Shown here in pieces: positions 383 to 10,296 of a stretch of DNA of 53,402 nucleotides; positions within the stretch are counted from its first letter, which is position 1, and every line of letters starts with the position of its first letter. The notes under the pieces are model-generated. The model made no database searches. It was given only the letters and a program-made list of their open reading frames with translations, and was not told the DNA's origin. The position numbers and the translations under genes were made by a program. The DNA comes from Leptolyngbyaceae cyanobacterium C42_A2020_001 (lineage in GTDB: Bacteria; Cyanobacteriota; Cyanobacteriia; Leptolyngbyales; Leptolyngbyaceae), in the NCBI GenBank assembly GCA_015272515.1, contig JACYLN010000032.1, positions 1 through 53,402 of the forward strand, read 5' to 3'.

Positions 383-2383
383 ATGACTTACGAAATGGCA
401 GTTGATAGCTCAGTATCCTTAAGCCTGGTTAAAGATGAGTTGCTTCACTCCGACGCGAGACAACGAATCATTCGTAAAGCTCTGCTCTCACGCAGAGTTG
501 AAGAGAGACTGTTGGATCTGTTTAGCCAAGGCAAACTGTTTGGTACGGTACACACCTGTATTGGGCAGGAGTTTTCGGGGGCGGTATTAACGGAGTTTTT
601 GCAGCCAGGCGATTCTATCTTTTCAAATCATCGCTGTCATGGGCACTTCCTTTCCTTCACCCATGATGTGCATGGGCTAATAGCAGAAATCATGGGGAAG
701 CAGACAGGGGTGTGCGGGGGACGAGGAGGTAGTCAACACCTGTGCAAGGATGGTTTTTACTCTAATGGTATTCAAGGCGGCATTGTTCCTGTTTCGGCAG
801 GCTTGGCTCTTGCTCGTAAGTTTAATAGGGATCAAAAAATCTCAGTTGTCTTTATTGGGGATGGCACTTTAGGGGAAGGTGCCATTTATGAGGCGTTTAA
901 TATTGCATCTAAATGGGAGTTGCCGCTGCTGGTGGTGCTTGAGAACAATGGCTACGCCCAATCTACAAATCAGCAGGAGACCTTAGCTGGAAGCATCTGC
1001 GATCGCGCCGCAGCCTTTGGCATACGGACGGAAAAAGCGGACACCTGGAATTGGGAGCGACTGTACTCCACTGCCAACGAGTTGATTGATTTTGTTAGAA
1101 ACGAATCTAAGCCTGCTTTCCTGCAAATAGACACCTTCAGACTCAAAGCCCACTCAAAGGGAGACGATAACCGTCCTAGAAGCGAAGTAGAGCCATTTGA
1201 GAAGCGCGACCCGCTAAACCAAATGCTTGCAGAAAGTTCCCCTGAGCTAGTAGAGTTACTGTCTGAAATCAATCAGCTTGTAGATGAGGCAGTTGCGCTG
1301 GCAGAAGCAGCCCCCTATGCTGCAACAGAAACTGCTTCAACCACACCTCAGACAATTGAATGGGCAGAGTCTAAGGTTGAAAAAAGACGACTCGTTCAAG
1401 CGCTCAACCAAACCTTCAAGGAACTGATGGGGCAAAACTCCAAGATTACCTTCATCGGGGAAGATGTTAAGTCTCCTTATGGAGGTGCATTCAAGGTTTC
1501 TCAAGGTCTCTCAGATTTGTTTCCTGAACGAGTTTTTAATACGCCTATTTCTGAGTCCGCTATTGTTGGAATTGGCTGTGGTTTAGCGATGGAGGGGTAT
1601 TTCCCCTTCGTAGAAATCATGTTTGGTGACTTCACGACGCTAATTCTTGACCAGTTGCTAAACCACGCAAGCAAGTTTAGATATATGTATAACGACCAAG
1701 TCACTACCAATTTGGTCGTTCGGTCTCCCATGGGTGGGGGTCGAGGGTATGGTCCAACTCATAGCCAAACGTTAGATCGCCATTTCATGGGTATTCCAGG
1801 CTTAAGAATCGTTGCGGTCAATAACTTGATCGAGCCAATCAGGGTTTACCAACCCTTGCTTACTTCTGGTAGCGAGCCGACTCTCTTAATTGAGAACAAG
1901 CTTCTGTATTCCCTAAATTTGCGTGAGAAATTGCCCGAAGGGTTTAAGCGACTGACATCCAACGAAACGTTTCCAACGGTTGTGCTGAAGCCAGAATCGA
2001 ATGCTTTAGATATTACGTTAATTGGTTACGGTGGACTGAGTGACACACTCGTTACCGTTGCCGAAAGATTGTTTGAAGAGTTCGATCTGATTGCACAAAT
2101 TATTTGCCCCACCCAAATCTATCCATTCAGGATTGAACCGTTGCTTGATAAACTGTCTGCCAGTAAATTTCTAATCCTGGTTGAGGAGGGACAGGGATTC
2201 GCTGGTTTTGGGGCAGAAGTGGTGGCTCAAATTGCCGAGCATAATGTGGCGTTGCTGAAGCGAGTGAAACGCATTGTTCCGCAGGCAATTCCAATTCCCG
2301 CCTGCGGTCCGGCAGAAAAAGAGATGCTACCCAATGTGGATAATATCGTTACATCAATTTTAGGATTCATCCATGAAGTATGA
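383..2383 (+). CDS. Fused E1 alpha/beta subunit of a 2-oxoacid dehydrogenase complex
   Basis: Thiamine-diphosphate-dependent E1 that decarboxylates a 2-oxo acid and passes the acyl group to lipoyl-E2. The first ~325 residues are the alpha part: the ThDP/Mg site runs from GDG (159-161) to ENN (187-189), and the RLKAHSKGDD stretch near 253-262 matches the active-site loop of E1 alpha. From ~335 the beta part follows, with FIGEDV, a PISES motif and an MFGDF segment. The 666-aa length fits an alpha-beta fusion, as in some branched-chain or acetoin-type E1 enzymes. The usual cyanobacterial PDH has separate, unlinked pdhA and pdhB, so this is probably a second complex. The substrate cannot be read from the sequence. 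The downstream E2 overlaps it by 11 nt, which implies translational coupling. Confidence 0.9.
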   Translation: MTYEMAVDSSVSLSLVKDELLHSDARQRIIRKALLSRRVEERLLDLFSQGKLFGTVHTCIGQEFSGAVLTEFLQPGDSIFSNHRCHGHFLSFTHDVHGLIAEIMGKQTGVCGGRGGSQHLCKDGFYSNGIQGGIVPVSAGLALARKFNRDQKISVVFIGDGTLGEGAIYEAFNIASKWELPLLVVLENNGYAQSTNQQETLAGSICDRAAAFGIRTEKADTWNWERLYSTANELIDFVRNESKPAFLQIDTFRLKAHSKGDDNRPRSEVEPFEKRDPLNQMLAESSPELVELLSEINQLVDEAVALAEAAPYAATETASTTPQTIEWAESKVEKRRLVQALNQTFKELMGQNSKITFIGEDVKSPYGGAFKVSQGLSDLFPERVFNTPISESAIVGIGCGLAMEGYFPFVEIMFGDFTTLILDQLLNHASKFRYMYNDQVTTNLVVRSPMGGGRGYGPTHSQTLDRHFMGIPGLRIVAVNNLIEPIRVYQPLLTSGSEPTLLIENKLLYSLNLREKLPEGFKRLTSNETFPTVVLKPESNALDITLIGYGGLSDTLVTVAERLFEEFDLIAQIICPTQIYPFRIEPLLDKLSASKFLILVEEGQGFAGFGAEVVAQIAEHNVALLKRVKRIVPQAIPIPACGPAEKEMLPNVDNIVTSILGFIHEV

Positions 2384-3836
2384 ATTGTTGGTACCACGGC
2401 TGAATACTAACGATGATGAAGTAGATATAGTCCACTGGTACTTCAAGGATCGAGAGTACGTCGAAAAAGGGCAAGAAATTGTAGACTTAGAGTCTTCCAA
2501 AGCGGTTGTTAGTATTGAAAGCGAAGCATCTGGCTATATTTCGTGCTGTTTTCAAAAAGGGGATACCGTCAAAGTAGGAGTGCCCCTGGCAGTTTTTTAC
2601 TCCTCGATCGCAGAATTGGAGGCTGATTTACAGGGCAACAGTCAAGCGGCTCAGCCTACTGCGGCTAATTCTTCTACTCAGGCAACGCCAACTGAACTGC
2701 CAGCCCAACTCATCACTTCAGAGCATCGTTCAGCACCCGCCACTCCAGTTCTCACTGCCCAACAACAGGTGGAGTCGCAAACAGCGAGTTTAGAGCCACA
2801 AAAACCGCAACCAACGTTTACGTTCACTCGTTTTTCTAAAGCGGCACAGGAGTACATTGAACGAAACCAGATCAATCCAAGTCTGTTTGAAGGGATGGGG
2901 CTTGTTTCGGTTGAAGTGATTGAAACGGTGCTGGGGATTCGGCAGCCAGTAGTTGCTCCAAGTAATGGGTCGTCGCAGCCTTACCTTAGTCAGGGGCAGG
3001 TTACAATTTCTCAACCGCTCACCAACCCTGGGCTGCGTTCGGAGAAAGTCAGCAAGTCTAAACAGTTAGAAATCAGCCTTTTAACTGCAGGGCAGTCTGG
3101 AGGCATCAACAGCTCGTTAACTGTACAGTTTAACTCAGCGGGAATTCGGCAAACTCTGGAGGAAATGGGTTCTCTAAATGGTCAGGTGTTGCCCTTGATC
3201 TTGTTTGAGTTGGCACGGTTGCTGGAAGAATACCCGGCATTTACGGCTTACTACGAAGCTGGACAAATTTATTACTACGATCGCATTGATCTTGGCTTAG
3301 CGATCGACCTGGGAAAAGGACTGAAAGTGCCTGTCATCCGCAATGCCAACCAACTGTCTCCCGCTGAAATTTTAGAAGTGGTCACTGATTTTGCAAGACG
3401 CTATCTAGAAAATCAACTGACTGTAGACGATCTGACTGGCGGAACCATGACGATTAGCGACCTCTCCAATGAAAAGATTCTCCATTTCCAGCCATTAATT
3501 AATCAGAACCAGGCTGTCATTTTGGGGATTGGGGGAGATAGCAGTATGGAGGGGTACCCAATGACCTTGACCCTGGTGTTTGATCACCGTCTATTGGCAG
3601 GTCGGGAAGTGGCATTATTTCTCAATGCGCTCCGCGATCGCTTACTCAGCTATCAACTCATAAACCTTCCGGTGGCAGAAAAGGCAGTGCAAACGAAAAA
3701 TGTTACCTGTAATCGCTGCTTGATCGATTTGGATACGCTTTACCAGAAGTTTGGCAAAGATGCCTTGATGCACGTCCACATGAACGACAAAGGGCAAACG
3801 GCTTATATCTGCCACGTTTGTTTAGGAGGCTTCTAA
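2373..3836 (+). CDS. Variant E2 acyltransferase with C-terminal zinc-ribbon-like tail
   Basis: Dihydrolipoyl acyltransferase-type protein of 487 aa. Domains in order: lipoyl domain 1-78, with the lipoylation lysine K43 in ESSKAVV; a linker rich in Ala, Pro, Thr and Gln (~88-150); a peripheral-subunit-binding domain (~152-188, RFSKAAQEYIE); and a catalytic domain (~225-430). Two features are odd. The DHRxxDG active-site motif reads DHRLLAG (404-410): the histidine H405 is kept but the aspartate is alanine (A409). After the catalytic domain a ~50-residue tail carries C446xxC449 and C480xxC483, which resembles a zinc ribbon and is not normal in E2 proteins. The gene overlaps E1 by 11 nt and its 3' end carries the strong TTAGGAGG that serves the next gene. 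It may hand acyl groups to the ACP encoded next rather than to CoA (inference). Confidence 0.85.
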   Translation: MKYELLVPRLNTNDDEVDIVHWYFKDREYVEKGQEIVDLESSKAVVSIESEASGYISCCFQKGDTVKVGVPLAVFYSSIAELEADLQGNSQAAQPTAANSSTQATPTELPAQLITSEHRSAPATPVLTAQQQVESQTASLEPQKPQPTFTFTRFSKAAQEYIERNQINPSLFEGMGLVSVEVIETVLGIRQPVVAPSNGSSQPYLSQGQVTISQPLTNPGLRSEKVSKSKQLEISLLTAGQSGGINSSLTVQFNSAGIRQTLEEMGSLNGQVLPLILFELARLLEEYPAFTAYYEAGQIYYYDRIDLGLAIDLGKGLKVPVIRNANQLSPAEILEVVTDFARRYLENQLTVDDLTGGTMTISDLSNEKILHFQPLINQNQAVILGIGGDSSMEGYPMTLTLVFDHRLLAGREVALFLNALRDRLLSYQLINLPVAEKAVQTKNVTCNRCLIDLDTLYQKFGKDALMHVHMNDKGQTAYICHVCLGGF

Positions 3837-3837
3837 C

Positions 3838-4503
3838 GTGGATACCGTTGTAGAAATCATTTCAGTTATTTCCGGTAAGGAACGGGATAGACTTGCACCC
3901 GATGCCAACTTGCGCTCCTTAGGAATCACTTCTTCCATTGAAATTCTCAAAATTCAAAGTGCGCTTGAGCGCAAGTTCAACCAGAAGTTGCCACCGCTGG
4001 GAGATACCTGGACGATTAATAAAATTGCAGCTCAAGTTGGACAATCCTCAAGCCATGATGCCGAACAAACTGCACCTATCAAAATTAACCGTGATCAAAA
4101 CATCACCTCTCTCAGCCCAAGCGATCCTTCTGCAACGTTAAATGTGGGAGGGCTATTTATCGGGGTTGACATTGAGGAAGTTGATCACTTGCCTATCACC
4201 TCAAACTATCGCACTCACGATTTTTACCGCAGTGTATTCAACGATGAGGAAATTTCCTATGCGCTGCTCAAGCCAGAAGCACGACTACATCTATGTGGTA
4301 TTTTCTGTGCCAAAGAAGCCTTGAAAAAATCGGCACCTGAATTAATTCAACTACGAATGGAGGAAATTCAGGTATATCACCGTCAGGGGCGACCTTTGAT
4401 CAAAACGAGTCACCCCTCCATCGATTCCAGGTTCAATTTCCAAGTTAGTATCAGTCACTCTAACCACTATGCTGTGGCAACCGTTCTCGCGATCGCTAAA
4501 TAG
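3838..4503 (+). CDS. Acyl carrier protein fused to AcpS-type phosphopantetheinyl transferase
   Basis: A 221-aa two-domain protein. Residues ~1-68 look like an acyl carrier protein: the LGITSSIEIL segment (28-37) aligns with the LGxDSLxxxxL attachment motif, placing Ser32 at the phosphopantetheine site, with the usual Asp and Leu replaced by Thr and Ser. A polar linker (~69-100) leads to an AcpS-like domain (~105-221) with GVDIEEV (D111), FCAKEALKK (E160) and SISHSNHYAVAT (204-215). The metal-binding Asp and Glu of holo-ACP synthase are therefore present. The start is GTG, 8 nt after TTAGGAGG and one nt after the E2 stop. The most likely role is a self-activating carrier for the acyl group produced by the E1/E2 proteins (inference). 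Confidence 0.8.
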   Translation: MDTVVEIISVISGKERDRLAPDANLRSLGITSSIEILKIQSALERKFNQKLPPLGDTWTINKIAAQVGQSSSHDAEQTAPIKINRDQNITSLSPSDPSATLNVGGLFIGVDIEEVDHLPITSNYRTHDFYRSVFNDEEISYALLKPEARLHLCGIFCAKEALKKSAPELIQLRMEEIQVYHRQGRPLIKTSHPSIDSRFNFQVSISHSNHYAVATVLAIAK

Positions 4504-6298
4504 TGTCACCCTGGGAAAACGAGTGTTTCACGCATTCGACTGGGCATTTGATCAGGGGTTATTTTATAAAGTTCGATTTGACATGGGAAAATTCCGCTAC
4601 ATCAACCCCATCAAATGGCTAAGCATCCCTCGACGCTTAGATCCATCGGTGCAACGAGATGCAGCGATTGTTGTGGTTGGAGTTGGAATTGCAGCTTTTG
4701 CGTTTGTGCGATCGCTACACCGACTGGGCTACACCAACGTTACTATCATTGCTCGCGATGAAGCCTATGGCGGCAAATGCGTGAATTACGGGTGTATGCC
4801 ATCGGAATTCTACACAGCGCATCGGGACGAGCAGCCAACGGTCGCGATCGAGAAAGGCAAAGCATTCGTGGCATCTCTGCGAAAGGCAACAGAGCAAAGC
4901 TTCAAAGAGCTTGGTTACCCCTTGATTCGGGGCGAAGTTACCGCGGTAGAGGGGAATAATGTAACCCTGAGTACGGGCGAAACCTACTCGTTTGATCGCC
5001 TCGTTTTAGCAACAGGGAATCGCCAAACGGATTGGACATTGTTAGAACCAACCTGTTCCCTCAAAGAGTTTTGGGAGATTTCATCAGGAAAACTAGTAAT
5101 TGTCTCGGACGGCAACGTTGCATCCTTAACCTACGCCAGCATCGCCCGAGATCGCGGATTAGACACAACCGTCATCTTTACCACCCCCCCCTTATTAGGA
5201 CACCTGCCCTCCTTTCAATATTTCAGGCGGGAACTGGAAAAGCAGGGGATTGAAATCTTGTCATCTGTCAAAATTCAAGCGCGGGAAGACAACCGTTTGA
5301 CGATTAAGTTTCAAGGAAAGCCGAAATCCATCGAGTTTGATCATCTGATGTATGACGGCGTGCCAGAGTTAAACCTTCCACCCATTGATGGCGTTTCCAA
5401 AACAATCCTAGACATTGACCTCAAGCAGGCACGCTTAATCGGACGCTCAGATATTTATGTATTGGGAGATGCCTCCGGTTTTCTAGCAGCTACCGAAGCT
5501 GAACTCCAAGCAAAGCAACTAGCAAGTGCCTGGTCAAGTGGGGAAGCCACCCAAATTCGAGACTTTGCCCGCCTGCCTGCCAGAATTCACGCTCGGAAGT
5601 CATTTGCGATGGTTGGAGGTCCGTGGACGCTTCTCTACCCAAATTGGCGTTCCGTTGACTTTAAGATGCTTGGCTGGTCGGCAGTTCACAGCCAAGCAGG
5701 AAAACTCTGGTACCTCTACAATCCTCAAGAAAAAAAAGTTGAAGCAATTCACATTTGCCATCGAGACGCATCAGAGCTAATTTCTCTTGCTTCTGTATTA
5801 ATTGATTTGCCAATTACAGACACTCGTTGGCTCACCTCCTCGATTCACCCCACCTCCGCCGAAATCTTCAAGATTATGATTGAGGATATCGAGGCAGGAG
5901 AATTGACAACCCGAAATACTCAAGAGCTTTTAGGCACTACTACTGCCCCCTCCCATTCAGATATTCCCTCTACGTTGCTAAGCCTGCCATCGATCGCGCA
6001 AATTCATCGCAGTGCTTTCTACCAAACGGTATTCACTCCAGAAGAACGGGCGATCGGTATTCTAGATCAAAATCCTAACCTTTACTTCGCCATCTTGCTT
6101 GGTATTAAATCCCTGTTAGGAAACAATCAAGAACAAAGCACAATTGCACTTAGACGCTCTGATGAAGGACACTACCATGCAAAAGGGATTGACTTTAGCT
6201 ACACGATAGAACCTGAATCAACCTGTGTGACATTACAGTTTCAAAACAATATAGCAACGGTATACATGGGTAGTTTAGTGAATGAAACAGGTAACTGA
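4469..6298 (+). CDS. Dihydrolipoamide-dehydrogenase-like flavoprotein with a degenerate AcpS-like C-terminus
   Basis: A 609-aa E3-like protein. The FAD motif is VVVGVGIAA (68-76), with Ala in place of the last Gly. The redox disulfide lies in GGKCVNYGCMPSE (C104, C109); glutamate replaces the usual lysine after PS. A second FAD segment is GDASGF (333-338). The dimer-interface HPTxxE motif of lipoamide dehydrogenases is present (H460 to E465). Beyond it, residues ~508-609 are extra and resemble AcpS: FYQTVFTPEER and YFAILLGIKSLLG align with FYRSVFNDEE and HLCGIFCAKEALKK of the neighbouring transferase. The catalytic Glu is lost (K547-S548) and no GxDI motif is seen. The ORF overlaps its neighbour by 35 nt; an alternative ATG at 4583 would remove the overlap. 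Likely role: reoxidise the lipoyl group, with the tail perhaps docking ACP. Confidence 0.8.
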   Translation: MLWQPFSRSLNSVTLGKRVFHAFDWAFDQGLFYKVRFDMGKFRYINPIKWLSIPRRLDPSVQRDAAIVVVGVGIAAFAFVRSLHRLGYTNVTIIARDEAYGGKCVNYGCMPSEFYTAHRDEQPTVAIEKGKAFVASLRKATEQSFKELGYPLIRGEVTAVEGNNVTLSTGETYSFDRLVLATGNRQTDWTLLEPTCSLKEFWEISSGKLVIVSDGNVASLTYASIARDRGLDTTVIFTTPPLLGHLPSFQYFRRELEKQGIEILSSVKIQAREDNRLTIKFQGKPKSIEFDHLMYDGVPELNLPPIDGVSKTILDIDLKQARLIGRSDIYVLGDASGFLAATEAELQAKQLASAWSSGEATQIRDFARLPARIHARKSFAMVGGPWTLLYPNWRSVDFKMLGWSAVHSQAGKLWYLYNPQEKKVEAIHICHRDASELISLASVLIDLPITDTRWLTSSIHPTSAEIFKIMIEDIEAGELTTRNTQELLGTTTAPSHSDIPSTLLSLPSIAQIHRSAFYQTVFTPEERAIGILDQNPNLYFAILLGIKSLLGNNQEQSTIALRRSDEGHYHAKGIDFSYTIEPESTCVTLQFQNNIATVYMGSLVNETGN

Positions 6299-6380: not shown

Positions 6381-6983
6381 ATGAAACCGCAAACGATTCT
6401 AAGAAATATCATCTGGCATTATCAAAAAGCACAATTAGGTGAAATAGGAAAAAACGCAAACGTGAATCTCTTGGCAGATGTTCGAGGTCGCAAAAAGAGC
6501 ATCTTCATAGGAGAAGGCAGCACAATATGCAAATATGCAACCTTAGAAGTTGATACTGTTGATGTGGGTGAATCCAAAATTGTTATTGGTAACAACACTC
6601 TGATCAGTTCCTTTGTAATTATCCGCACGCATGGCGGAACGATTAAGATTGGAAACTCATGCTTTGTCAATTCCTTCACTGTTCTTCATGGGCATGGAGA
6701 TTTGACCATCGGAAACAGTTGTTTGATTGGACCACAGGTAACAATGGTTCCTGCAAACAACGGCTTTAAGGATCGCAATACTCCAATTAAATTACAAACT
6801 CCAACTCGCCAAGGGATCACAATTGAGGATGACGTTTGGATTGGCGCGGGGGTCACTATTTTGGATGGCTGCACGATTGGCAAAGGGTGTGTCATTGGTG
6901 CAGGGGCAGTTGTAACAAGAAGCTTAGACCCCTATTCCATTGTGGCAGGGAGCGCCGCCAAAAAAATTGAGATCAGAGAATAA
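6381..6983 (+). CDS. Left-handed beta-helix (hexapeptide repeat) acyltransferase
   Basis: A 200-aa protein with many hexapeptide-repeat turns, for example IGNNTLIS, IGNSCFVN, IGNSCLIG, IEDDVWIGAGVTI and IGKGCVIGAGAVV, ending in the usual SIVAGSAAKKI segment. This is the fold of maltose/galactoside O-acetyltransferases and of sugar acyltransferases of the WbbJ type. The loop ANNGFKDRNTPI (about 127-138) has Asn-Asn where many relatives carry a catalytic His, so the acceptor or chemistry may differ. It begins 82 nt after the E3-like gene on the same strand and could be part of the same unit. Some enzymes of this fold, such as LpxA, use acyl-ACP directly, so it may use the product of the upstream operon (inference). 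Confidence 0.8.
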   Translation: MKPQTILRNIIWHYQKAQLGEIGKNANVNLLADVRGRKKSIFIGEGSTICKYATLEVDTVDVGESKIVIGNNTLISSFVIIRTHGGTIKIGNSCFVNSFTVLHGHGDLTIGNSCLIGPQVTMVPANNGFKDRNTPIKLQTPTRQGITIEDDVWIGAGVTILDGCTIGKGCVIGAGAVVTRSLDPYSIVAGSAAKKIEIRE

Positions 6984-7106: not shown

Positions 7107-7544
7107 ATGCTGAAAACTGCTTACTTGCTGGGTTGGGCTTTTTGCTGCTCATTAATGATATGCCTGGGTTGGCTGAACTTGGGGATGCTGCCTGCCTCTG
7201 CCCAGGGATTAACCCTTGATCCCCGCACTGTCTCCTCGCAGCAACTTCCCTTTAAGCGGTTGGGGGTAGATTCTAACGACATTCCATCTGAAAAAGTGAG
7301 TCAGTTTGTTCACGCCTGTTCACAGGTTGTCACGCTAATTGAACACCGTGAGGCAGACCTACAAGCAGCAGAAACAGAGGCTGAGTCTATTCGCATTGAG
7401 CAAGAGATTGAGGCTGAGGCATTGGCAATAATTCAAGACGCAGGCTTAACTCGGCAAGAGTATTTACAGTTGCTGGGTTTAGCCAACACCGATCCCGAGT
7501 TTGGGGAGCGTGTCGCCGTTCAACTGCAAGAAACTTCCAGTTAG
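7107..7544 (+). CDS. Secreted DUF4168-like protein
   Basis: A small protein of 145 aa. The N-terminus has a hydrophobic signal segment (TAYLLGWAFCCSLMICLGW) ending near ASAQG, so it is probably exported. The mature part has the pattern of DUF4168: a helix with VSQFVHACSQV, an acidic Glu/Ala-rich helix (~85-110) and the closing GLTRQEYLQL plus FGERVAVQL. The family is common in cyanobacteria and has no established role. A TTG codon immediately precedes the ATG at 7107; the ATG is preferred, with GAGAGA about 10 nt upstream. No operon partner is evident. Confidence 0.7.
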   Translation: MLKTAYLLGWAFCCSLMICLGWLNLGMLPASAQGLTLDPRTVSSQQLPFKRLGVDSNDIPSEKVSQFVHACSQVVTLIEHREADLQAAETEAESIRIEQEIEAEALAIIQDAGLTRQEYLQLLGLANTDPEFGERVAVQLQETSS

Positions 7545-7952
7545 ACGAGCCAGGGATCAGCAGATTTCCCCATATCCATCGCCGCACGCAATGGGGTAAG
7601 GGTGAATCAGCAAGCGACCAATACTTGGCATTTAGGCGCTATCTATGTTCTAAACTTGCTGACCGAAGCTATATCTTTAAGGCGACCTCTAGAATTTCTC
7701 AGCCTAAAGCTTGCAGAACATGAAATGAATGATTAAATGAGAAGAGCAAACGGGCAGACTTCATGTGTGTCCAATTGTCTTGTTTTTGATGTTCCCTCCT
7801 AAAGTGCACAGACAATTTTGCCTGGTGGCTTTTGTTCTGCAACCGGTAGAGAGAGTCATACAGAAACTGAACAAACCCTAAAGTTCCAATCTGGGGTGAT
7901 CAAACGTCGGTATTTTAGAAGGCTAGTGAGAACAGCTTTTGTAGGTGTCTGA
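7545..7952. other. Intergenic region between the DUF4168 gene and ftsQ
   Basis: No gene larger than about 20 codons is credible here. A 6-bp inverted repeat CCCCAT/ATGGGG (7568-7573 and 7591-7596) lies 24 nt after the upstream stop codon and could form a weak hairpin. Positions 7659-7673 (ctgaccgaagctata) match 14 of 15 bases of the end of the palindromic element at 31087-31101, suggesting a repeat relic. The rest is presumably the ftsQ leader. Confidence 0.5.
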
Positions 7953-8819
7953 ATGACTGGTAACATTTCACCAATCTCACAGGCAGATCTTGCCCAAAGA
8001 CGGCAACGGTTGCGCCGTCAACGGCGAGTCAGGTTTCTTCAAACAGCTTGGCGACTGCTGGCGGTTGGTGGGTTAGCAGGCGGTTTGGTATGGGTTACAA
8101 CCTTACCAGTTTGGCTCATTCGTGAACCTGGGCAGATCAAGGTGGAGGGGAATCGCTTTCTTCCTGAGCAAACCGTCCGGGCTTTGGTGCCGATTACCTA
8201 TCCTCAATCTCTGTTGCGATTGGAACCACAGGCGATCGCGCAACATCTCCAGGCAAAAGCGCCAATTTCTGAAGTCATGGTTAGTCGGCAGTTATTTCCC
8301 CCCGGATTAACTGTTCGCATCCAAGAACGGCTTCCCGTTGCAGTCACCCTGCTTACCTCTGCTGACGCTCAATTGCTCACTCAAAAACCTCTGAAAGATC
8401 GAGCCGGGGCTGCAAGAATTGGCTTACTAGACGAAAGCGGTGTCCCAATTCCTTACGAAAACTACACCCTGCTACAACCCACCGTAAAACTGCCGAGCCT
8501 TAGAGTAATTGGAGGTCAAGAGTATTATCGTCCCTATTGGTCCAAGCTATATCGAGAAATTAGTCGCAGTCCTGTAAAAATTGCTGAGATTGATTTTCAA
8601 AATCCTGCTAACCTTGTGCTGAAAACAGAGTTAGGAACTGTCCATCTAGGATCCTACGGCCCTCGCTTTCCTGAACAAGTGAAAACGCTTGATCGGATGC
8701 GAAAACTTCCTAATCAGATTAATCTGAATCAGATCGCTTACATCGATCTGAGAAACCCTGTCTCTCCAGTTGTTCAGATTAACGCTTCAAAAGAGGTTAC
8801 AAAAGCAAACGTTCCATGA
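7953..8819 (+). CDS. ftsQ: Cell division protein FtsQ/DivIB
   Basis: Bitopic divisome protein that links early and late cell-division proteins. The N-terminal ~33 residues are cytoplasmic and very basic (RRQRLRRQRRVRF). One transmembrane helix (~36-54) follows, then a POTRA domain starting at IKVEGNRFLPEQTV (~62-130, ending in QERLPVAV), and a beta-rich C-terminal domain to residue 288. Length and layout fit cyanobacterial FtsQ. It lies directly upstream of ftsZ on the same strand with a 208-nt gap, the usual cyanobacterial arrangement. The ATG at 7953 has no strong Shine-Dalgarno sequence but suits the basic N-terminus. Confidence 0.9.
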   Translation: MTGNISPISQADLAQRRQRLRRQRRVRFLQTAWRLLAVGGLAGGLVWVTTLPVWLIREPGQIKVEGNRFLPEQTVRALVPITYPQSLLRLEPQAIAQHLQAKAPISEVMVSRQLFPPGLTVRIQERLPVAVTLLTSADAQLLTQKPLKDRAGAARIGLLDESGVPIPYENYTLLQPTVKLPSLRVIGGQEYYRPYWSKLYREISRSPVKIAEIDFQNPANLVLKTELGTVHLGSYGPRFPEQVKTLDRMRKLPNQINLNQIAYIDLRNPVSPVVQINASKEVTKANVP

Positions 8820-9027
8820 TTTTGGAGTTAACGATGATGACAAACTGTTGATAAGCGAATTCGACTAATTCCTTGTCCTATCGGTTCTTCAACCCCTTCT
8901 TCCGATTCTTCTCAAGATTGGTTTTTTAAACGACTTCCCTTATAGTTGATCAAAGTCGTTCAGCCAGGAAGATTGTTGAAGTAAATCCTTTTCAGATGAT
9001 ACTTATAGCTAGTTGCCTATTATTCCA

Positions 9028-10296
9028 ATGACACTTAATAACGGCTTAGGAAATGCTCACGAAAACTCCAACCCAGAAGGACATTCGCACTCTACCCTGG
9101 CAACCGACTCCTCCAATTCGTTCAACAACCATCCCGTTATGAACCAGCCCATCAATGCAATGGAACGAAACGAGGAAGACGTGAGGAGCAATAACATCGT
9201 GCCAGGCAGTGTAGCGAAGATTAAAGTAATTGGCGTTGGCGGCGGCGGCGGGAATGCTGTGAATCGAATGATTGCCAGCGACGTGAGCGGCGTGGAGTTT
9301 TGGTCGATTAATACAGATGCCCAAGCCTTAGAAGGGTCGGATGCACCAAAGCGGTTGCAAGTGGGGCAAAAGCTAACTCGTGGGTTAGGAGCAGGCGGTA
9401 ATCCAGCTATTGGGCAAAAAGCGGCTGAGGAATCACGAGATGAAATTGCAACCGCACTGGAAGGCGCGGATCTCGTTTTTATCACGGCTGGTATGGGTGG
9501 TGGAACTGGAACAGGTGCAGCACCGATCGTGGCAGAAGTTGCAAAGGAGTTAGGTGCTCTCACGATTGGAATTGTGACTCGCCCATTTACCTTTGAGGGG
9601 CGGCGACGTGCCAGTCAGGCAGCAGAAGGGATTGAAGCGCTGCAAAGCCGAGTTGATACGCTGATCATGATTCCCAACGACAAGTTGCTGTCCGTTATCT
9701 CAGAGCAAACCCCTGTTCAGGAAGCGTTTCGCTCAGCCGACGACATTTTGCGTCAGGGCGTACAGGGTATCTCAGATATTATTACGATTCGTGGATTAGT
9801 CAACGTTGACTTTGCCGACGTTCGAGCAGTAATGGCAGATGCGGGTTCTGCCCTGATGGGAATCGGAGTTGGCACTGGTAAATCCAGAGCGCGAGAAGCG
9901 GCAGTAGCATCCATTTCCTCGCCATTGCTGGAATCTTCGATTGATGGAGCAAGAGGGGTTGTCTTCAATATTACGGGCGGATCAGATCTCACCTTGCATG
10001 AAGTGAATGCTGCGGCAGAGATTATCTATGAGGTTGTTGATCCGAATGCCAATATTATTTTTGGTGCCGTGATCGATGAGCGATTACAGGGTGAGATCCG
10101 AATTACGGTCATCGCAACAGGTTTTACTGGAGAAGTACAGCCGCAGCCGCAGCAAATCACGAAGCCTTCAACGTTAAAACGTCCGCCTGTATCGAGTAGT
10201 GGAACAGTAACACCGCCGCCGCAATCTCCAGCGAGACCCAGAGGTGACGTGTTGGATATTCCTGACTTCCTGCGTAACCGTCGTCCTCCGCGCTAG
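9028..10296 (+). CDS. ftsZ: Cell division GTPase FtsZ
   Basis: Tubulin-like GTPase that forms the division ring. The sequence shows [17 protein letters not shown] near the start of the GTPase domain, the tubulin signature [10 protein letters not shown] (near residue 160), the T7 loop region [11 protein letters not shown], and a C-terminal tail ending in [13 protein letters not shown], the conserved peptide that binds division partners. An N-terminal extension of about 60 residues precedes the GTPase domain, as in many cyanobacteria. The ATG at 9028 is preferred over an in-frame TTG at 9013, giving 422 aa. Its stop TAG overlaps the stop of the convergent hydrolase gene within a single CTAG. 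Confidence 0.98.

Follow-up and report, generated by a model that had tools for sequence, protein, structure and literature searches.

Several nonribosomal peptide synthetase (NRPS) clusters encode an E1, a lipoyl-E2 and an acyl carrier protein (ACP) together and, as described in the available parts of the sources, take a C2 unit from a ketose phosphate (QncN/QncL/QncM, NapB/NapD/NapC, SclQ1-4 and DinS/T/U). Peng et al. 2012 is reportedly the primary paper on such ketose-derived glycolicacyl-ACP loading. In the accessible sections of the respective papers, QncN/L/M are said to have been shown to direct the biosynthesis and attachment of the C2 glycolicacyl unit (PMC6335953), and xylulose 5-phosphate is named as its source (PMC7570522 and PMC9268379). 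A gene set of similar content occupies positions 383-6298 of the window, the whole 53,402-nt stretch of DNA analyzed here, which is the entire contig JACYLN010000032.1 of Leptolyngbyaceae cyanobacterium C42_A2020_001 (source genome, G000). Its four packed genes encode a fused E1, a lipoyl-E2, a fusion of an ACP with an AcpS-type phosphopantetheinyl transferase (PPTase) and an E3-like protein. A sequence-only reading of this DNA had known of no precedent for this combination of genes; however, E1/E2/ACP sets have already been described in NRPS clusters, and the type of system is known from there. The new part is the polysaccharide-linked cassette: E1-E2-(ACP-AcpS) is a scattered cassette, often near polysaccharide genes, and is newly recognized here. 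We propose, at slightly better than an even chance given the sequences, that the window set encodes a dedicated, oxidative acyl-ACP synthase, which supplies acyl groups to a sugar acyltransferase.

The glycolicacyl systems, as far as their available descriptions go, differ from the window set in a free 76-residue ACP (SclQ1, DinT), a split E1, an E1-beta fused to E2 in QncL and an NRPS product. In the pepteridine system of Photorhabdus, PDH (pyruvate dehydrogenase)-like E1 and E2-T-C proteins are proposed in the accessible text to prime a carrier domain and not coenzyme A (CoA), which is the likeness to the window set; unlike there, the carrier is fused to E2 with a condensation domain, and an alpha-keto acid is the proposed substrate. 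For the Flavobacterium psychrophilum O-antigen, the available part of PMC6519341 proposes that an ACP (wfpD) feeds a PglD-like sugar acyltransferase (wfpG), a predicted acyl transfer to a sugar amine, with a dedicated ACP as the donor, which resembles our proposal. The acyl chain there comes from ketoacyl synthases and a reductase, unlike in the window set, and that part of the text mentions no E1/E2. A literature search covering few subscription journals returned nothing on a polysaccharide-linked cassette, a bacterial ACP-AcpS fusion or a fusion of a lipoyl domain with a hexapeptide acyltransferase.

Parts and kinship of the window locus

The fused E1 (alpha plus beta, 666 aa, 383..2383; all genes of the locus lie on the + strand) is a thiamine diphosphate (ThDP) enzyme with the motifs NHRCHGH (aa 82), GDGTLGEG (aa 159) and HSKGDD (aa 257), and its E1_dh, Transket_pyr and Transketolase_C domains score above the curated Pfam cut-offs. 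The E2-like acyltransferase (487 aa, 2373..3836), whose gene overlaps that of E1 by 11 nt, comprises a lipoyl domain (2373..2606) with lipoyl K43, invariant across 22 E2s, a catalytic domain with DH at 404-405 and a four-cysteine ribbon (C446, C449, C480 and C483; 3708..3821); Biotin_lipoyl and 2-oxoacid_dh also exceed their cut-offs. Its structure model (mean predicted local distance difference test (pLDDT) 77.3) contains the lipoyl domain, a helical stretch at 156-186, which by position we take to be the usual subunit-binding domain, the catalytic core and the ribbon, and the listed PDB matches are mostly E2 enzymes. The ACP-AcpS gene (221 aa, 3838..4503) follows after a 1-nt gap and overlaps the E3-like gene (609 aa, 4469..6298) by 35 nt. 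This gene order, with its overlaps and gap, was confirmed on the open reading frames (ORFs) as first described, and the previously named lipoyl K43, AcpS D111/E160 and E3 redox Cys pair are all present. A fifth gene, missed by the sequence-only reading, begins 82 bases past the E3-like gene and encodes a hexapeptide acyltransferase (200 aa, 6381..6983, Pfam/NCBIfam), which suggests a destination for the acyl group.

A tblastn search of 72,556 plasmid records placed RenI (41%) and RenH (56-57%) of the renieramycin cluster at the top for E2 and E1, respectively. RenH and RenI (MK748464.1), a fused E1 (57% identical) and a lipoyl-E2 (41% identical), are encoded by overlapping genes in the same order as in the window. 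RenI has no ribbon and stops about 11 residues past the catalytic domain, whereas the window E2 carries the ribbon; likewise, the renieramycin set belongs to an NRPS-type cluster with no ACP-AcpS within 4 kb downstream of its E1, whereas the window has one. An E1 tree (85 rows, short search, Shimodaira-Hasegawa-like approximate likelihood ratio test (SH-aLRT) support only, with L075, L076 and L107 dropped by length) unites the E1s of the window, of a second genome of the same genus (G012), of RenH and of Ruminiclostridium sufflavum (L029) in one starred set. In the last of these (L029 11947-19116), E1 is followed by a protein in which a lipoyl-E2 is joined to a polyketide synthase (PKS). Pfam recognizes ketoacyl synthase, dehydratase and ketoreductase domains in it as well as three PP-binding domains, which makes this a polyketide and not an NRPS locus and would put the E2 on the same chain as its presumed carrier. 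The HSKGDD motif is found in 79/82 E1 rows and also in L116, whereas L117, L118 and the source genome's own PDH E1-alpha have a different sequence there; a second motif, [FY]GTVHTCI, is no independent evidence because it was one of the two patterns used in the E1 scan described below. Sets of the order ACP-E1a-E1b-E2 lie inside NRPS or PKS clusters in L114 and L116, the latter a Paenibacillus polymyxa plasmid cluster (L116 2450-7876) with a ketoacyl-synthase gene, a split E1, an E2 and two acyl carrier proteins. The kinship of the window set to the Qnc/Nap/Scl sets is presumed through RenH and gene content, and RenH is itself presumed to make glycolyl.

As in the Qnc/Nap/Scl type, a partner ACP is encoded with E1/E2. 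Both domains of the fusion exceed their Pfam cut-offs, the ACP domain (3838..4062; PP-binding 26.4 vs 20.8 bits) as well as the AcpS domain (4147..4500; ACPS 42.9 vs 25 bits). Across 39 aligned fusions, S33 and D111 are each invariant and E160 is kept in 38, the remaining copy being truncated. The carrier serine had been assigned to Ser32, which is the wrong residue, as position 32 varies and S33 opens helix 33-47 of the model. This model (mean pLDDT 89.4) has helices at 2-12, 33-47 and 60-72 followed by the AcpS fold, with a low-confidence linker within about residues 73-103. It has 86 matches in the PDB at E <= 0.001. All 50 that are listed are AcpS or fungal fatty acid synthase (FAS) chains, including 1f7t and 1f80 for AcpS and 2was/2wat for fungal FAS; a separate ACP is not among these 50, and the N-terminal domain is therefore called an ACP from its Pfam match, the serine and the arrangement of helices. 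The catalytic Asp and Glu and the AcpS fold of an AcpS-type PPTase are all present in the fusion. Fungal type I FAS with an integrated PPT domain similarly carries ACP and PPTase on one chain, but is a giant enzyme with the PPT near the end of FAS alpha, unlike the compact bacterial fusion; the available part of PMC5605751 describes the fungal FAS-type PPT subfamily.

The E3-like flavin-disulphide reductase (Pyr_redox_2 above cut-off) has the marks of a dihydrolipoamide dehydrogenase, namely CxxxxC at aa 104-109 (C104/C109) and HPTSAE (HPxxxE) at 460; its dimerization domain (13.4 bits vs the Pfam cut-off of 25.3) and its equivalog score (72.2 vs 408.8) both fall short. The likeness of its tail (aa 505-548, 5981..6112) to AcpS, reported in the sequence-only reading, is real (16.5 bits, against 3.8 for the best of 300 shuffled tails), but weak and partial. 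An ungapped reading gives K-S or K-T at the expected K-E in 3/3 cyanobacterial copies, and the HMMER alignments of the tail in the window and in the 20-kb G012 locus (L003) end ahead of the expected catalytic Glu. The plural transferases of that reading are thus without support as regards a second active AcpS: the E3 tail is degenerate, and two active PPTases in the locus were rejected on the partial match and the replaced Glu.

Cassette types across bacteria

An E1-alignment scan of a species-genome collection found at least 567 relatives among at least 595 pattern matches. The best 80 of these relatives, together with the window, L003, L028 and L109, gave 84 loci, which were classified with hidden Markov models (HMMs) built from the family itself. 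Type A (E1, lipoyl-E2 and ACP-AcpS) comprises 38/84 loci, type B (E1 and a lipoyl-hexapeptide fusion) 17 and type C (E1 and lipoyl-E2, no ACP-AcpS) 13; four further loci have a lipoyl gene only, one (L032) has ACP-AcpS with the E2 in an over-long ORF, and in 11 no lipoyl gene was found. A lipoyl gene follows E1 in 72 loci; among these, ACP-AcpS accompanies the catalytic E2 in 38/51 and the lipoyl-hexapeptide fusion in 0/17, an alternation that is suggestive only, because the independent events are few. The ribbon (CxxC...CxxC) is present in 38/38 type A E2s and in 3/13 type C proteins, with one of the ten ribbon-negative type C proteins (L083) cut by a contig end. In type B (L036, L042, L044, L046, L052, L054, L055, L057, L065, L069, L074, L077, L100, L104, L106, L107 and L109), the fusion protein directly follows the fused E1; both of its domains exceeded the Pfam cut-offs in the 5/17 proteins tested, the other 12 calls resting on the family-built HMMs.

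In 30/38 type A loci, E1 has a hexapeptide gene no more than 4.5 kb away, and in 18 the distance is less than 120 nt. Neighboring genes (same strand, 100-900 aa, up to two per side in type A and three in type B, L003 and L109 excluded) were scanned with Pfam for 115/118 type A neighbors (an L075 E1 fragment and the E3 genes of L075 and the window omitted) and 67/69 type B neighbors (one L046 gene and an L107 E1 fragment omitted). In descriptive counts, Hexapep (18), Glyco_trans_1_4 (14), GDP_Man_Dehyd (9) and Glycos_transf_2 (9) were found near type A, and Glycos_transf_1 (8), Polysacc_deac_1 (6) and DUF3473 (4) near type B. Three observations concern individual members of the collection. A planctomycete E1 clade (596-718 aa; L048, L056, L058, L061, L087 and L102) had no lipoyl gene found adjacent. 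The E1 of L050, titled a Klebsiella pneumoniae metagenome-assembled genome, groups with planctomycete, nitrospirote and armatimonadote proteins, and the title is probably wrong. An IMG/VR contig (L109 7947-10960) encodes a fused E1 (35%) and a lipoyl-hexapeptide gene and is either a virus or a misassigned contig.

Among 42 genomes of the source's order, the ACP-AcpS protein occurs in two, G000 and G012, of one genus. All five genes of the window locus, hexapeptide acyltransferase included, recur in unchanged order in G012, where two Acyl_transf_3 genes flank the set at one end and a GT87 gene at the opposite end. In Symploca (L075), E1, E2, ACP-AcpS and E3 are found together, the E1 frame (7257-9245) being interrupted in the assembly between 7778 and 7791. 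Because the gene order recurs in G012 and, with the broken E1, in Symploca, the window operon is not a chance formation in one strain, an outcome against which the sequence-only reading had set its proposal. An ACP-AcpS profile matched 101 of 386 cyanobacterial genomes, but a match that covers both domains and is free of stops occurs only in G000 and G382; the other 99 had the AcpS part alone or broken or partial matches, such as a match in G299 that spans 8-217 yet holds three internal stops and an open frame of 117 aa. Two of 296 genomes of the L084 phylum (those of L084 and L096, at 1e-35) and one of 294 of the L037 phylum (that of L037) also matched. These surveys starting from ACP-AcpS add only G382 as an independent case of linkage, the fusion adjoining a ribbon protein in G000 and G382 alike. 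In G382 (a 1.7-Mb genome), this is an AMP-ligase with a C-terminal four-cysteine ribbon, directly before ACP-AcpS (L026 9633-12065, minus strand). Its tail aligns with the E2 mainly over the ribbon (hhalign 95.8%), and Pfam finds no E2 domain in the ligase; hexapeptide acyltransferase, NeuB, UDP-GlcNAc 2-epimerase and cytidylyltransferase genes lie beside the fusion, and the 20 kb read around it gave no E1 match. The ligase and ACP-AcpS may form a variant of the loading device in which a ligase is the driving enzyme.

Elsewhere the source genome encodes another E1-alpha (C67), E2 (C130) and PPTase (C125) and five Pyr_redox_dim proteins, all on other contigs, which fits the earlier remark that cyanobacterial PDH genes are scattered. 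A misplaced ordinary PDH operon was rejected, given this other E1-alpha and E2 and the recurrence of the cassette. A phage or mobile origin was likewise rejected: the E1 query returned one IMG/VR relative (L109, 35%) and 23 phage records, all below 60% identity, and blastn of E1 against E. coli genomes gave no match. The ACP-AcpS protein had no IMG/VR relative, its profile matching eight IMG/VR loci in the AcpS region only.

Proposed route and competing explanations

From the gene set, domains, conserved residues, linkage and kinship, we infer the following reactions, acyl group and acceptor. E1 would take a short acyl precursor, likeliest the two-carbon unit of a ketose phosphate, and form an acyl or hydroxyacyl intermediate on ThDP; oxidized lipoyl on E2 K43 would accept the acyl group as a thioester (reductive acylation), and the E2 core with H405, helped by the C-terminal ribbon, would hand it to phosphopantetheine on ACP S33. 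The fused AcpS domain would install this phosphopantetheine and hold the ACP in its holo form, while the E3-like protein would re-oxidize the lipoyl arm. The hexapeptide acyltransferase would then move the acyl group from the ACP onto a sugar of a surface polysaccharide. The step to the ACP is predicted with good confidence and a sugar acceptor is probable, whereas a glycolyl group from a ketose phosphate, by analogy with the presumed kin, falls just short of an even chance. Transfer to ACP rather than CoA, the core of the sequence-only reading, gains indirect support from the ribbon's company with ACP-AcpS (38/38) and from the presumed kin, which load an ACP according to the available parts of PMC6335953 and PMC7570522.

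That reading had E1 decarboxylating a 2-oxo acid, pyruvate or branched, so that the complex would make the corresponding acyl-ACP. Pfam and NCBIfam do place the parts among PDH E1 alpha/beta and 2-oxoacid_dh, and the pepteridine proteins are, in their available description, proposed to use alpha-keto acids. However, all listed PDH/OGDH/LPD equivalog models score under cut-off for the window E1, E2 and E3 (best E1 model 224.8 vs 393.85), the closest kin, RenH, comes from a tetrahydroisoquinoline cluster, and HSKGDD, common to the ACP sets of NRPS/PKS clusters and not to three ordinary E1s, stands where the source genome's own PDH E1-alpha has HSLADP. Because the E1 groups with RenH, presumed kin of the ketose-phosphate Qnc/Nap sets, we regard a 2-oxo acid as an unlikely substrate; the central idea of the sequence-only reading is probably right and its substrate guess probably wrong. 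The grouping with RenH and with the Ruminiclostridium E2-PKS locus would also suit a role, like that in renieramycin, in supplying an extender or starter for a nonribosomal peptide or a polyketide whose assembly line is encoded elsewhere in the genome, and the contig ends at window base 1, so that the sequence upstream of E1 stops there. This is improbable: the NRPS-cluster setting of the Qnc/Nap/Scl type is missing locally (the genome outside was not searched for NRPS/PKS), as the five largest ORFs that the window holds beyond 12 kb carry no assembly-line domain and neither do the two largest of the 20-kb G012 locus (L003, otherwise judged by eye), and RenI and the E2s of L029, L038, L092 and L095 lack the ribbon and come from loci without ACP-AcpS. 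Octanoyl-ACP is the usual lipoyl precursor, and the set could be an ordinary CoA-making complex whose ACP-AcpS serves another task, for example octanoyl-ACP for E2 lipoylation; the E2 does retain lipoyl K43 and the catalytic DH. We consider this very improbable, given that the ribbon tracks ACP-AcpS, that type B has a lipoyl domain yet no ACP-AcpS in 17/17 loci, and that the host already holds another PDH E1-alpha and E2.

Several observations weigh against a polysaccharide-directed acyl-ACP synthase. Downstream of the window cassette lie ftsQ- and ftsZ-type genes with no evident polysaccharide cluster, the GT87 and Acyl_transf_3 neighbors in G012 fit polysaccharide acylation loosely, and eight type A loci, Symploca L075 among them, lack a hexapeptide gene within 4.5 kb. 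In the E1 tree, the window E1 is closer to NRPS/PKS-locus E1s than to most polysaccharide-type E1s. The neighbor counts stand without an enrichment test, there being no background set, and an independent-pairs (tree-aware) test of the E2/fusion alternation yielded 2-3 contrasts and no statistical power. The E3-like gene was found in 3/85 sources searched, plus a 16-bit match in L043. Because this gene is rare and its dimerization domain is below cut-off, the E3 role is a guess limited to cyanobacteria.

Possible consequences for surface polysaccharides

The fusion in type B loci suggests that the route can do without the ACP step and that the acceptor is the molecule bound by the hexapeptide enzyme. 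More broadly, CoA-independent acylation of polysaccharide sugars, running from E1 through lipoyl to a hexapeptide acyltransferase, may be widespread and unrecognized, a generalization we offer tentatively. Equally tentative is the division of this route into a type A with a ribbon E2 and a self-activating ACP-AcpS, and a type B with the lipoyl domain fused to the acyltransferase. In that case the lipoyl-hexapeptide fusion would be an acyltransferase drawing its acyl group from lipoate, of which we found no description in the literature searched. The ACP-AcpS fusion parallels, in compact bacterial form, the arrangement seen in fungal FAS. If the proposal is true, the chemistry of antibiotic assembly lines also serves cell-surface sugars, and central-carbon sugars would be tied to surface decoration. 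It would further predict unusual, perhaps glycolyl, ester or amide groups on the polysaccharides made by members of Planctomycetota, Bacteroidota, Acidobacteriota and Nitrospirota and some cyanobacteria.

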